64,000 nucleotides of DNA from Candidatus Methanoperedens sp. GTDB taxonomy: Archaea > Halobacteriota > Methanosarcinia > Methanosarcinales > Methanoperedenaceae. Each line of letters starts with the position of its first letter. Position 1 is the stretch's first letter. The translations under genes and the position numbers were made by a program. The stretch is taken from positions 124,001 through 188,000 of the forward strand of contig JAPMTS010000014.1 in NCBI GenBank assembly GCA_026552955.1. The letters run 5' to 3'. Shown here piece after piece: positions 36,128-44,013 of the stretch. The notes under the pieces were generated by a model that did not search any database, was not told the origin of the DNA, and worked only from the letters and a program-made list of their open reading frames with translations.

Positions 36128-36364
36128 TTGAAATATTACATGTTATTCAGAGCAAAGCCTACACTTGATATTCCAAAATACATGAATGCTATTAAGACGA
36201 TAACGTCGAGGGAAATAAAGAGGAACTTTCCAGAAGTAAAACAGAAATTGTGGGGTGAGGCATTCTGGTCTCCATTATATTTTCTTGCAACAAGCGGTCA
36301 GGTTACGCTGGAACAATTGAAAAGATATGTAGATGGGCAGGGAGAACCAGATGCAGCTAACTGA
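36128..36364 (+). pseudogene. C-terminal fragment of IS200-type transposase TnpA
   Basis: The product holds KPTLDIPKYMNAIKTITSRE, then FPEVKQKLWGEAFWSPLYFLATSG and KRYVDGQG. This is the C-terminal half of Y1 HUH transposases. The N-terminal half with the HUH metal site is missing, so it cannot be active. The 3' end overlaps the tnpB start in the usual way (14 nt). Confidence 0.8.
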
Positions 36365-36602
36365 AAAGGTCAGGATATCCCCTACAATAGAACAGGAAGA
36401 GGTATTATGGCACTTATCAGAGCAGTGCAGACTCATCTACAACTTTGCCCTTGCAGAAAGAAAAAAGCAGTGGGAACTAAATAATCTCAGATTCGGATTT
36501 CAGGTATTTCCATGGGGAAAACAGGAGTGGATAGGGTACACCAAGCAGCAGAACGACCTTCCATGGATAAAAGAATTGCAATTACCGGAAAACCCGGTGT
36601 AG
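36351..36602 (+). pseudogene. N-terminal fragment of TnpB (IS605 OrfB)
   Basis: The frame from ATG 36351 encodes MQLTEKVRISPTIEQEEVLW, then IYNFALAERKKQWE and GYTKQQNDLPWIKE, the first helix-turn-helix region of TnpB. Similarity ends near 36570, and a TAG follows at 36600. The RuvC-like nuclease is absent. The last bases of the fragment contain the start codon of the next gene. Confidence 0.8.
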
Positions 36603-37072: not shown

Positions 37073-37415
37073 AATACACTGGAAAGCAAAGGCAAAAAAG
37101 ATATATTTTTACATAGTTACAAAGCCTTCTCACCGACCAAGTCTCAAACACTGAATCTTTGATTGAGGCATGGATAATGGCTTCGCACACTTTCTGGACG
37201 TTTTCGATTTCTTATAGGTATCTGGCCACTGTCGCTGTACCAAAAATCAAAAAAGCAGGAATTCACCAAATCTTGATAAATCCGGGGTCAAAAAGGAATG
37301 AGGCGCTTATTTATTTAAGAATTCAGATGGAAAAACATATAACCAAAAATGAACATAGTTATTTTGCACATAATCAGGGGGAAAAATTACGAGCGGCCTT
37401 TATAAAAATATCCTG
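37073..37415. other. Gap between THEP1 and universal stress protein genes
   Basis: AT-rich. TTTATTTAAGAATTC near 37309-37323 is a TATA-like candidate for the stress-protein cassette. A plus-strand open frame across it (37159-37455) has no recognisable protein signature. GGGGGAAAAATT at 37377-37388 may be the ribosome binding site and an unusual start for the next gene. Confidence 0.35.
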
Positions 37416-37865
37416 GTGGCAACAGATGGGTCAGAACATACTGAAAAAGCAATAATCCATGCAATTGAGTTAGCAAAGCTCACGGGAGCACAGCTTCATG
37501 CAGTGTATGTGATCAGCATTATCTCCCCTCCTGAAAATCTGGACATTAAGACCGACTATGATTCTGGATCATCAGTTTCTATTGATGCATCCATGGATGG
37601 ATTAAAGAAGATACTTCAACTGGATGGGGATAAAGCAATAAGATCCATAGAGGAAAAGGCAGCGATAGAGGGTGTAACTGTCAGGAAATGGATCCTGGAA
37701 GGGCAGCCTGCAAAAGAGATACTGAGGCTTGCCGAAGAGCAATCATTTGATCTGATAGTAATGGGAACGCTGGGCAGAGGCGGGATCGAAAAATTCCTGC
37801 TTGGAAGCGTGGCAGATAAAGTGATCAGGGGTTCAAAGATCCCTGTGTTGACCGTGAGAAAATAG
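37416..37865 (+). CDS. Universal stress protein (UspA family)
   Basis: The 149-residue protein has VATDGSEHTEKAIIHAIELAK and the ATP-binding motif LIVMGTLGRGGIEKFLLGSVADKVI. The in-frame DNA before the GTG at 37416 encodes LYKNIL, the first beta strand of the fold (YKNILVATDGS). The true start is therefore probably upstream, where no ATG, GTG or TTG exists after the stop at 37373; ATT 37386 behind GGGGGA is the best candidate. It ends 19 nt before the 21-residue peptide gene and leads the radical SAM cassette. Confidence 0.85.
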   Translation: MATDGSEHTEKAIIHAIELAKLTGAQLHAVYVISIISPPENLDIKTDYDSGSSVSIDASMDGLKKILQLDGDKAIRSIEEKAAIEGVTVRKWILEGQPAKEILRLAEEQSFDLIVMGTLGRGGIEKFLLGSVADKVIRGSKIPVLTVRK

Positions 37866-37867
37866 AA

Positions 37868-37875
37868 AGAGGAGG
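37868..37875 (+). promoter_or_regulatory. Very strong ribosome binding site of the 21-residue peptide
   Basis: AGAGGAGGTGA just before the ATG at 37885 is a near-complete anti-16S match, the strongest in this part of the window. It implies high translation of the tiny peptide. Confidence 0.75.
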
Positions 37876-37884
37876 TGAAAAAAA

Positions 37885-37950
37885 ATGAAAATCAGAAAGA
37901 TTAAGAAAGTATCAAGAGGAACATGCAAATGCAAATCCTCATGCGCGTAG
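37885..37950 (+). CDS. 21-residue Cys-rich peptide, candidate precursor of a modified peptide
   Basis: The frame encodes a basic leader-like half (MKIRKIKKVSRG) and a compact Cys core (TCKCKSSCA) with three Cys, then TAG. It sits behind an exceptional ribosome binding site, 19 nt after the stress-protein gene and upstream of a radical SAM/SPASM enzyme. These are features of RiPP precursor genes, such as sactipeptide or ranthipeptide precursors. Length is very short for a precursor, and no family is recalled. Confidence 0.6.
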   Translation: MKIRKIKKVSRGTCKCKSSCA

Positions 37951-37991
37951 AAATGTCGGGAATAATTCGCACAACCTGAGAGAACCGGATG

Positions 37992-38042
37992 AATTGACGG
38001 GAGACGTTGTATCTATTGTGTAGATATATCCGTCTCTCAATT
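37992..38042 (+). promoter_or_regulatory. Stem-loop between peptide gene and maturase genes
   Basis: AATTGA-CGG-GAGACG (37992-38006) pairs with CGTCTC-TCAATT (38031-38042), leaving a three-base bulge. The loop contains a second short hairpin, TATCTA/TAGATA. A hairpin directly after a precursor gene often protects or partly terminates the message so that the peptide is made in excess over the enzymes. That role is inferred here. Confidence 0.55.
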
Positions 38043-38082
38043 ACCAATGATCCAAATAATAAAAAGAGAGTTTGATCGATAG

Positions 38083-38247
38083 ATGACAAAACAAGAAATT
38101 AATCCTTATGTAACCCTTATTTGCACCCACTGCGATTTCTACAAGGAGGATGATACACAGCTTGAATGCGCCGCCTTCAAGGTTTTAAAAGCCATGCTCC
38201 AGGAGGGCAGGATTACACCCGTTGAGATAAAGGATGCCTTGCGGTAA
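38083..38247 (+). CDS. 54-residue Cys-containing protein of the radical SAM cassette
   Basis: The product starts MTKQEINPYVTLICTHCDFY and has a further Cys in LECAAFKVLKAM. The helical tail is EGRITPVEIKDALR. It overlaps the radical SAM start by 14 nt, so they are translated together. It could be a second peptide substrate or a peptide-carrier/recognition partner. From memory, methanogen genomes pair small Cys proteins of similar size with radical SAM enzymes. Confidence 0.65.
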   Translation: MTKQEINPYVTLICTHCDFYKEDDTQLECAAFKVLKAMLQEGRITPVEIKDALR

Positions 38248-39463
38248 ATTTCCCTTGTTGGCGCCGGGTCATATCCTGCGTGAGCTTGAATCACCTGTTG
38301 TTTATAATATCTCTCGGGATGAGTTGTACGAACTTGATGATGAGGCGTTCCAGTTTTTAAAAAAATGTAATGGTATGACCCCTTTCCCGGATCTGTTCCT
38401 GAAGGAAAAAAGGGATGAAAATATTGATTTCATGCTGGATGAGGGGATTATCAATTTCACCGAGGGAAATGAAATAAAAACGATCAAATCTCCCCATTCA
38501 CCTATTCCCTCCCTTCGGTATCTTCTGTTAAATATCACAAATAAATGCAATCTCAAATGTAAGCATTGTTATCTCCCGGATCCTGGAAAACGTGAGATTG
38601 ACCCTGGTATTTTTGAAAAAGCAGTGCAACAATTTGAAGAAATGGGTGGTTTGAAACTCATGATATCTGGTGGTGAACCGCTGATCCATTCAAGATTCTG
38701 GGAACTTATGGATATACTGCCATCGTATGAATTGAATGTGGTTATCCTGTCAAACGGAACTCAGATAGACAAGACCACAGCCAGGAAATTATCCCGTTAT
38801 GTTCATGAAGTGCAGATCAGTATCGACGGTATCCGTTCCCATGATCTTCTGCGAGGAAAAGGTTCGTATGCCAGGTCTATGAAAGGCATTTCTCGCTTAC
38901 ATGAATCCGGGATACCCATTTCGATCGCCACTATGATACATAAATTCAATACTGATGAGTTTGATGAGATGGAAAAGCTTTTTTCAACGATGGGAGTGAT
39001 CTCATGGGGCGTTGATGTTCCCTGTGTTGTGGGTAAGCTTTGCGAAAACAGGGATTTTGTTCTCGATTTGAAGGAGGCAGCCAAATGCTTAAAATACGGG
39101 TTTGGAGCCGGCGCACATGAAAGCACGGGAGATCTCACATGCGGTTCGCACCTCTGTTCGGTAGCTTCCGACGGTTGCGTCAGTAAATGTGGATTTTTTG
39201 AAAATGAACCAGCAGGAGATGTTCGTGATCTGCGGTTAGCATGGGAGAACATCTGCACGACCAGCTTATGGAGACTTGATGAACTTGAATGCAAAGAGTG
39301 TGCGGTGCTTCATGAATGCAAAGGCGGATGCAGGTTCAGGGCAAAGCAATATAAAGGAATACTTGCCCCTGATCCTTTGATGTGCTATGCTAATTTGCCT
39401 GGTGGAAGGAAGTACGAGCAGGATGTTAAGAAAAGAATTTCTCCACCTAAAGGAATGGTGTGA
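38234..39463 (+). CDS. Radical SAM/SPASM peptide-modifying enzyme
   Basis: The 409-residue enzyme has an N-terminal PqqD/RRE-like region (residues about 15-75: YNISRDELYELDDEAFQFLKKC). The radical SAM core has CNLKCKHCYLPDPG (CxxxCxxC) and MISGGEPLIHSRFWEL. A C-terminal SPASM-type domain with many Cys (CGSHLCSVASDGCVSKCGFF, CKECAVLHECKGGCRF) would bind extra 4Fe-4S clusters. This architecture is that of RiPP maturases making thioether or C-C links. The two small Cys peptides upstream are likely substrates. Confidence 0.88.
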   Translation: MPCGKFPLLAPGHILRELESPVVYNISRDELYELDDEAFQFLKKCNGMTPFPDLFLKEKRDENIDFMLDEGIINFTEGNEIKTIKSPHSPIPSLRYLLLNITNKCNLKCKHCYLPDPGKREIDPGIFEKAVQQFEEMGGLKLMISGGEPLIHSRFWELMDILPSYELNVVILSNGTQIDKTTARKLSRYVHEVQISIDGIRSHDLLRGKGSYARSMKGISRLHESGIPISIATMIHKFNTDEFDEMEKLFSTMGVISWGVDVPCVVGKLCENRDFVLDLKEAAKCLKYGFGAGAHESTGDLTCGSHLCSVASDGCVSKCGFFENEPAGDVRDLRLAWENICTTSLWRLDELECKECAVLHECKGGCRFRAKQYKGILAPDPLMCYANLPGGRKYEQDVKKRISPPKGMV

Positions 39464-39887: not shown

Positions 39888-42134
<2,247 letters not shown>

Positions 42135-42932: not shown

Positions 42933-43256
42933 ATGACAAATTTATTACTTGTCCTTTCAAAGGACCCATACACAACAGAAACTCCCGACCTTGTACTTGA
43001 TATCGGGCTGAATGCAAAGGAAAAAGGAAACGATGTCTCGTTCTATTTAATAGAAGACGGCATAACAGCTGCAAGAAAATCAGAATTCGGGAATAAACTC
43101 GCAGCAGCGGAAAAGAAAGGCATCAAGATATTTGCAGACGATAAAGCGGTACTTTCAAGGTCACTTACTGACAAATTAATTAGCGGGGTTGAAATAAAAG
43201 AAATCGGAACACTTCTTGATTATATCATGGAATATGATAGAGTCGTGTGGTTTTAG
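42933..43256 (+). CDS. DsrE-family protein (first of three)
   Basis: The 107-residue protein has the DsrE/TusC-type Rossmann-like pattern (LLLVLSKDPYTTETPDLVLD, GNDVSFYLIEDGITAARKS). It has no Cys, like non-catalytic subunits of TusBCD/DsrEFH sulfur-relay hexamers. It ends DYIMEYDRVVWF. The next gene starts 9 nt later. The three genes probably form one complex for sulfur transfer, perhaps tRNA thiolation or cofactor sulfur. Confidence 0.75.
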   Translation: MTNLLLVLSKDPYTTETPDLVLDIGLNAKEKGNDVSFYLIEDGITAARKSEFGNKLAAAEKKGIKIFADDKAVLSRSLTDKLISGVEIKEIGTLLDYIMEYDRVVWF

Positions 43257-43264
43257 GTGATACT

Positions 43265-43633
43265 ATGACAGATAAACAGCTTACGATAGTTTCAATAAAC
43301 GGTCCCTACAGGGATGAAGGTGTATTCACGATGATGAGGCTTGCCCATGCGGCAAAAGAAAAAGGAATAACGGTCAATTTCTTCAACTATCTTGATGCCA
43401 CAGTGATCGCTCACAGGGACCAGGCACCAAAAGAGTTTCCCCCCATTGAAACAATTTTTGGGACAATCGTCAAAAAAGGCATAAAGCAGCCCAAAGCTGA
43501 TGCCATTGCATGTATAAAATGCACGGATGCAAGGGGTGTTACAAAGCAGCAGACTGAAGGCGTCATAATCGGCGGACTTTATGACCTTGGCGAATGGACC
43601 GGAGAATCGGATAAAACAATACTCATCGGGTGA
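43265..43633 (+). CDS. DsrE-family protein with Cys motif (TusD/DsrE-like)
   Basis: The 122-residue protein starts MTDKQLTIVSINGPYRDEGV and contains IACIKCTDARG at about residue 85, the likely sulfur-accepting Cys. It would be the catalytic member of the trio. I chose ATG 43265 over the GTG at 43247, which lies inside the upstream gene. Confidence 0.75.
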   Translation: MTDKQLTIVSINGPYRDEGVFTMMRLAHAAKEKGITVNFFNYLDATVIAHRDQAPKEFPPIETIFGTIVKKGIKQPKADAIACIKCTDARGVTKQQTEGVIIGGLYDLGEWTGESDKTILIG

Positions 43634-43638
43634 TTAAA

Positions 43639-44013
43639 ATGAGCAAGAAAGTAAATGTTATTGTAACACAACCTCCTTATGGAAAAGAAGATGCATTTTC
43701 GGCAGTTCCGCTGGCTGCTTCACAGGTTGCAGCAGGGAATGAAGCCTCATTGATCTTCGTAAGCGGGGGTGTCCATTCAATAGTGAAAGGACAAAAAACA
43801 GGATATGGAGACCTTGCGGTATGGTTCAAGGATGTACCGTCAGTAGAAGCTGAAATCACCAAGAACAGAGAACTTGTAAGGTTCTTTGCGCTTGACAGGG
43901 ATGTGGCAAAACGCACTATTTCCGATTCCGAGATCATTTCAGGGATAAAAAAGATAACACTTCCTGAATTGACGGACATGATACTTGAAGCGGATGTGAA
44001 CCTGGTATTTTGA
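43639..44013 (+). CDS. DsrE-family protein (third of three)
   Basis: The 124-residue protein starts MSKKVNVIVTQPPYGKEDAF and has ASLIFVSGGVHSIVKGQKTG and LELTDMILEADVNLVF-like ends typical of DsrF/DsrH members. It has no Cys. Start ATG 43639 lies 5 nt after the preceding stop. Confidence 0.72.
   Translation: MSKKVNVIVTQPPYGKEDAFSAVPLAASQVAAGNEASLIFVSGGVHSIVKGQKTGYGDLAVWFKDVPSVEAEITKNRELVRFFALDRDVAKRTISDSEIISGIKKITLPELTDMILEADVNLVF

Follow-up and report, generated by a model that had tools for sequence, protein, structure and literature searches.

The locus described here likely encodes a radical-SAM RiPP family that has not been described before and whose product takes part in copper handling, with both the modification of the peptide and its binding of copper being inferred. 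We read it as a RiPP family based on the fact that a very short peptide, a maturase typed by its fold and a partner protein with a CxxC...C motif (Cys54) co-occur across archaea and bacteria. All of the evidence is genomic; modification, copper binding and expression have not been shown. The window, by which we mean the whole 64,000-nucleotide stretch of DNA that was analyzed, is contig C36:124001-188000 of a Candidatus Methanoperedens genome of 2.48 Mb, and the features of the locus within it are as follows (window positions, strand, description).

37389..37865, +, universal stress protein gene (Pfam Usp, 8.9e-35), probable start ACG 37389
37870..37878, +, ribosome-binding site AGGAGGTGA, 6 nt ahead of the ATG of the peptide gene, as read from the sequence
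37885..37950, +, putative precursor peptide MKIRKIKKVSRGTCKCKSSCA, 21 residues (66 bp), with a basic leader-like half and a TCKCKSSCA core
38083..38247, +, Cys54, the 54-residue partner, with invariant C14-x2-C17...C29 and three predicted helices
38234..39463, +, radical SAM/SPASM maturase, 409 aa (Pfam Radical_SAM, 1.6e-23), below every NCBIfam cut-off
38234..38509, +, RRE/PqqD-like N-terminal domain of the maturase (residues 1-92), predicted from the order of strands and helices in the model and from profile alignments
38546..38569, +, CX3CX2C radical-SAM cluster motif CNLKCKHC (residues 105-112), cysteines invariant in the alignment
39140..39385, +, SPASM domain of the maturase, with seven cysteines (residues 303, 319, 353, 356, 362, 366, and 384)

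A first-pass annotation of the window had proposed a candidate RiPP system at this place. The positions it gave for the frames of 21, 54, and 409 residues are those listed above and all three held, and the proposal itself is supported, with a wider reach (other archaeal families and the Nitrospirae) than was first claimed.

The precursor peptide gene

The near-perfect ribosome-binding site that had been claimed for the 66-bp gene was confirmed, and its GAGGTG is kept in three related genomes (G018, G016, and G002). An SD-like motif precedes 32 of the 34 archaeal copies of the peptide, versus 10% for ATGs in general at these loci. The family consensus is M-x-I-x-K-[IV]-x-K...CKC[HK]xSC over a length of 20-21 residues, and in the Methanoperedens-group peptide set the majority of variants end in G[TSMIA]CKCHSSC[ATVSI] followed by the stop codon. 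Among the 34 archaeal copies, core codons differ by 0.025, 0.016, and 0.495 per site at codon positions 1, 2, and 3, respectively, with 1882 synonymous versus 97 nonsynonymous codon-pair differences. The leader half is less constrained, yet I3, K5, and mostly K8 are retained.

Since the frame and its ribosome-binding site are kept in dozens of genomes, and since variation in the core codons is nearly confined to third positions, the peptide is a real, translated gene under purifying selection, a conclusion that is drawn from sequence alone and without expression data. The first-pass annotation had named the absence of this frame beside homologous enzymes as the result that would refute it; the frame proved to be strongly conserved. 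A chance ORF at 37885-37950 was ruled out by this conservation together with the ribosome-binding site and the synonymous bias of the core codons. No family in Pfam, PHROG, or NCBIfam covers the peptide or Cys54, and gene callers likely miss such a precursor, it being too short for routine annotation.

The position of the peptide gene varies among genomes. In G018, G016, G002, and G012 the frame, with its ribosome-binding site, is upstream of Cys54; in G003, G005, G017, and G021 it is just downstream of the enzyme, as it is in two sister-family genomes and in Nitrospirae bacterium RBG_13_39_12. These placements bear on the explanation that the short frame acts in regulation as a leader peptide (attenuator) and has no product of its own. 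In favor of an attenuator are the very short length of the frame, its strong ribosome-binding site and its location upstream of the operon in the window. Against it, the location of the frame varies, with some copies preceding Cys54, others following the enzyme and others unlinked to either, and what is conserved in the core is the amino acid sequence and not a run of codons, with synonymous change being frequent. An attenuator peptide was rejected on the basis of the varying position, and this explanation retains almost no support.

The radical SAM/SPASM enzyme

The cysteines of the CX3CX2C motif and all seven SPASM cysteines are invariant in an alignment of 18 homologs from archaea and bacteria (alignment A3), and by these two sets of cysteines the enzyme qualifies as a radical SAM maturase. 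Its AlphaFold model (pLDDT 84, pTM 0.85) has SkfB, SuiB, and CteB as its best folds in the PDB, and a profile search ranked SkfB first. Profile alignments to CteB (5wgg, query 19-213) and TigE (8vpo, query 21-240) begin inside the N-terminal domain and run through it. Pfam PqqD had no match in the enzyme, and the N-terminal domain alone found nothing by sequence in the PDB. The earlier identification of a radical SAM/SPASM enzyme with an RRE/PqqD-like N-terminus held, with the RRE part being a prediction from the modeled fold only, for which there are no leader-binding data.

The nearest named relatives of the window enzyme, at 82% identity, are from Candidatus Methanoperedens. The enzyme scored under the cut-offs of the sactipeptide models AlbA (66 of 850 bits), SkfB (57 of 300), and StsB (77 of 625), and likewise under those of the cofactor-pathway models PqqE (58 of 381 bits) and MftC (96 of 265). 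Orthology to NirJ, AhbD, PqqE, or MftC was ruled out, the scores being far under the cut-offs.

These scores also bear on the explanation that the peptide serves as the raw material for a diffusible redox cofactor, in the manner of PqqA or MftA. SPASM enzymes with RRE-like domains act in this way in the PQQ and mycofactocin pathways, and the core region of the enzyme resembles the models for those pathways. Against this explanation are the distance from the PqqE and MftC cut-offs and the occurrence in one genome of several peptide copies, with His/Lys variants that depend on context and are placed in copper operons (see below), which would suit a locally used peptide better. We consider a cofactor role to be highly improbable.

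A second, short piece of the enzyme gene, from its C-terminal end and probably a remnant, was observed at G001:C1:126242-126469 (L132) as an open frame of 97 aa with 71% identity; it is ~10 kb from a dispersed peptide copy at G001:C1:116658.

Co-occurrence of the peptide and the enzyme

A profile search, using a peptide profile built from 19 peptides of which one row was bacterial, found the peptide in ~33 of 100 relatives of the window genome, and these are nearly the same relatives that have the enzyme (29) and Cys54. Within Methanoperedens, G010, G020, G026, G027, and G029 lack both peptide and enzyme. The bacterial sample comprised 296 genomes from the phylum of Nitrospirae bacterium RBG_13_39_12. 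With the archaeal-trained model, 81 of these genomes were positive for the peptide, 98 for the enzyme profile and 77 for both (Fisher 5.5e-46). Some of the enzyme-only genomes in this search were false negatives of the archaeal-biased model, as six of them had CKCKGSC peptides adjoining the enzyme. A retrained peptide model gave 99 peptide-positive genomes, with 96 having both genes, three the peptide only and two the enzyme only. The figure from the retrained model is partly circular, based on the fact that some of its training rows came from the tested genomes, while the archaeal-trained figure is almost free of circularity. At 55 of the 98 bacterial enzyme loci a peptide was found within 3 kb.

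In the phylum to which the window belongs (394 genomes), peptides were also found in families f9 (which we take to be, probably, Archaeoglobales), f30, and f34. The enzyme was present in nine of nine peptide-positive genomes tested from these three families, versus two of 71 that were peptide-negative. The co-occurrence of precursor and maturase that is expected of a RiPP class is met. Because the genomes share ancestry and do not count as independent, the p-values for co-occurrence are too small and are indicative only.

In the enzyme tree the archaeal and bacterial sides are cleanly separate (100/99), and based on this split we see no recent exchange between archaea and bacteria. A virus origin was set aside, as a scan of viral contigs gave no confirmed relative, and no plasmid relative covering 80% of the enzyme was found.

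The Cys54 partner protein

The relatives that have Cys54 are essentially those that have the enzyme, and in archaea its gene is directly upstream of that of the enzyme; in the window the two genes overlap by 14 nt. C14, C17, F19, and C29 are invariant. The bacterial form is a two-domain protein whose gene has the opposite orientation to that of the enzyme; it adjoins 30 of the 74 enzyme loci that were fetched, and some of these loci repeat a single place. The model of Cys54 has three helices and is of low confidence, and no fold match to this model was found in the PDB.

The first-pass annotation had left open whether the substrate is the tiny peptide or the 54-residue protein. The evidence favors the 21-mer, with the modification itself remaining unproven. 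The alternative is that the enzyme modifies Cys54 and that the 21-mer is an independent metal-binding peptide. In support of this, Cys54 is directly upstream of the enzyme gene, often overlapping it, in nearly all archaeal loci, and its three cysteines are invariant. Against it, Cys54 is conserved over its full length, as folded proteins are, and in bacteria it is a duplicated protein of 110-130 residues on the opposite strand that was not found beside 44 of the 74 fetched enzyme loci. The peptide, by contrast, tracks the enzyme genome by genome. We do not expect this alternative to be correct, and Cys54 is a conserved partner that is likely not the substrate. That it may be a metal-binding helper is a guess, as there are no binding data.

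Linkage to copper genes

A subset of the peptide copies, and only a subset, is genetically linked to genes for CopA, an HMA chaperone or CsoR. We defined CopA-type ATPases by TIGR01511. Of the bacterial copies situated away from the enzyme, 14 of 34 are within 8 kb of CopA, versus 0.46 expected; no CopA was found within 8 kb of any of the 33 enzyme-adjacent bacterial copies or the 47 enzyme genes. In archaea, CopA is within 5 kb of six of 41 dispersed peptide copies (0.38 expected) and of four of 32 enzyme loci (0.29 expected). The expected counts assume uniform gene placement, and since contigs are fragmented and genomes related, the p-values are indicative only. Two same-strand operons illustrate the arrangement: CopA - HMA chaperone - peptide - Cys54 - enzyme in the archaeal locus L372, and Cys54 - enzyme - peptide - universal stress protein - CopA in Methanoperedens G003 (L105). 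HMA domains also occur in these copper operons, and genes for a Met-rich secreted protein, YHS-domain proteins, and SHOCT proteins recur near dispersed copies; a CsoR-family repressor was seen once. Many peptide copies have no nearby copper gene. The copy in the window is one of them, as no copper gene was found next to its cassette and the CopA of this genome is ~131 kb distant, on the same contig.

Position 17, in the core, differs with context in bacteria. It is His in 14 of the 15 copies near CopA (the other being Tyr) and Lys in all 43 copies beside the enzyme (P 1.5e-12, ignoring relatedness; alternative starts within a copy were removed by hand before counting). In archaeal copies this residue is nearly always His, and it is Lys in the window copy.

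The statistics on CopA operons strengthen the suggestion in the first-pass annotation that the product may bind metal. Copper handling by the peptide product is likely, although this is inferred from genomic linkage without data on copper binding or copper response. A related explanation leaves the peptide unmodified, as a miniature metallothionein or copper chaperone, and gives the enzyme another role in the same stress response. In its favor, CKC[HK]xSC as it stands is a plausible Cu(I) site, and many copies are in CopA operons far from the enzyme. Against it are the near-perfect dependence of the peptide on the enzyme at the genome level, the fact that the two genes directly adjoin in many genomes, and the RRE-maturase fold of the enzyme. 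We regard an unmodified peptide as unlikely and favor a modified one.

Other neighbors of the dispersed copies were observed. One archaeal copy, in G526 (L379 3649-4964), is beside an apparent nickel/cobalt transporter and an ArsR-like regulator, and based on these neighbors the metal link may not be to copper only. The neighbors of several dispersed Methanoperedens copies (L157, L159, L161, L164, L165, and L166) appear to include geranylgeranyl-reductase-type oxidoreductases, FtsX/MacB-like ABC permeases, and a ClpP-like SDH protease whose N-terminus is TRASH-like.

Comparison with known systems

The thioether-forming systems of SkfB (sporulation killing factor) and CteB resemble the one described here in their radical SAM core, SPASM cysteine pattern, RRE-like N-terminus and Cys-containing precursor encoded nearby. 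They differ from it in that the precursor here has only 20-21 residues with a fixed core, CKC[HK]xSC, occurs in archaea and Nitrospirota, and has copies in copper operons; as noted above, the enzyme is also far under the skfB model cut-off. A Cys-rich core and a SkfB/CteB-like fold fit a sactipeptide or ranthipeptide, which remains a possibility, but do not show it, as the thioether linkage is inferred. SuiB, PqqE, and MftC share the superfamily and fold of the enzyme, whereas no curated family cut-off is met here and the precursors differ.

Methanobactin, bufferins and oxazolins are similar in being Cys peptides tied to copper homeostasis. All three are made by MNIO enzymes, bufferins and oxazolins have Sec signal peptides, and bufferins, as copper chelators, promote growth when copper is in excess (PMC12452194). 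In contrast, the system described here has a radical SAM/SPASM enzyme and a basic peptide of 20 residues without a signal sequence. At 20-21 residues, basic and with no hydrophobic stretch, the peptide has no Sec signal such as those of bufferins and oxazolins, and no MNIO (DUF692) was found among the Pfam-scanned neighbors, a search that did not cover whole genomes. Bulbicupramide of Microbulbifer is a copper-chelating RiPP from a conserved cluster (PMC12538549); it is alike in having a conserved RiPP cluster and, as we propose here, a copper-chelating product, and differs in being from another bacterial group. Our literature search found no paper with these core motifs and none combining Archaeoglobus, SPASM and RiPP; unpublished or paywalled accounts are not excluded. 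The family is likely undescribed, with no family for the peptide or Cys54 in the libraries searched.

Proposed pathway

In the pathway that we favor, the basic half of the peptide (M-x-I-x-K-[IV]-x-K) would bind the RRE domain of the enzyme as a short leader, and a 5'-deoxyadenosyl radical would modify the CKC[HK]xSC core with the SPASM clusters acting as electron acceptors. The modification would most likely join at least one Cys sulfur to a neighboring carbon (a thioether, -2 Da each), although the thioether as the specific bond rests on analogy with SkfB and CteB and we would lean slightly against it. Cys54 may assist by binding the peptide or metal. The product would be a small intracellular Cu(I) ligand, a buffer or carrier serving CopA-type pumps, and a single enzyme in each genome would act on the products of several dispersed peptide genes. 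In the bacterial set, the genes beside the enzyme would make up a Lys-17 type and those in copper operons a His-17 type.

Several points count against this pathway. No conserved protease or dedicated exporter was found with the cassette, and the three peptide-bearing bacterial genomes in which the retrained model left no enzyme partner among the 296 remain. Cross-linking of all three cysteines, should it occur, would leave few thiols for copper.

A bolder reading, which we judge could as easily be wrong as right, is that this is an ancient RiPP system of archaea and Nitrospirota with one SPASM enzyme per genome and dispersed 20-residue peptides, in which the His-17 type of the CopA operons would be a modified Cu(I) carrier or buffer in the cell and the radical-SAM counterpart of the MNIO-made copper peptides. 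If true, this would be a new RiPP class with a very short precursor, spanning two domains of life and having a housekeeping copper task rather than one in antibiosis. It would also supply a missing small-molecule part of copper homeostasis in methane-oxidizing archaea, related archaea of their phylum and Nitrospirota, together with a model substrate of 20 residues for work on SPASM chemistry. The His/Lys-17 split provides a direct, testable prediction of structure and function.

The universal stress protein and other features of the window

The universal stress protein had been counted as part of the system in the first-pass annotation, with a GTG start at 37416; neither claim was supported. 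Its gene adjoins the cassette in three genomes only (that of the window, G018, and G003), and G021 has a further copy at a distance of ~2 kb. As it is linked in only a few close relatives, the protein was ruled out as a defining part and is likely a local companion of the cassette. The gene has no ATG, GTG, or TTG at its natural start, where an ACG is found seven bases after a GGGGG/GGGAGG site. Initiation at this ACG is suggested by its conservation behind that site in three genomes, those of the window (37389-37391), L101, and L105. The start is very likely ACG 37389, upstream of the GTG, as inferred from the DNA only.

Upstream of the cassette, at 36128-36602, is the remnant of an IS200/IS605-type element, with a Y1 transposase fragment (Pfam Y1_Tnp) followed by an apparent truncated OrfB. 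At 39933-42134 is an ORF of 733 aa that resembles a catalase-peroxidase (KatG), an identity assigned by appearance only; its codons are, by eye, more GC-rich than the surroundings, and horizontal acquisition is possible. Three short overlapping ORFs form a run at 42933-44013, the first two being DsrE-like by Pfam.
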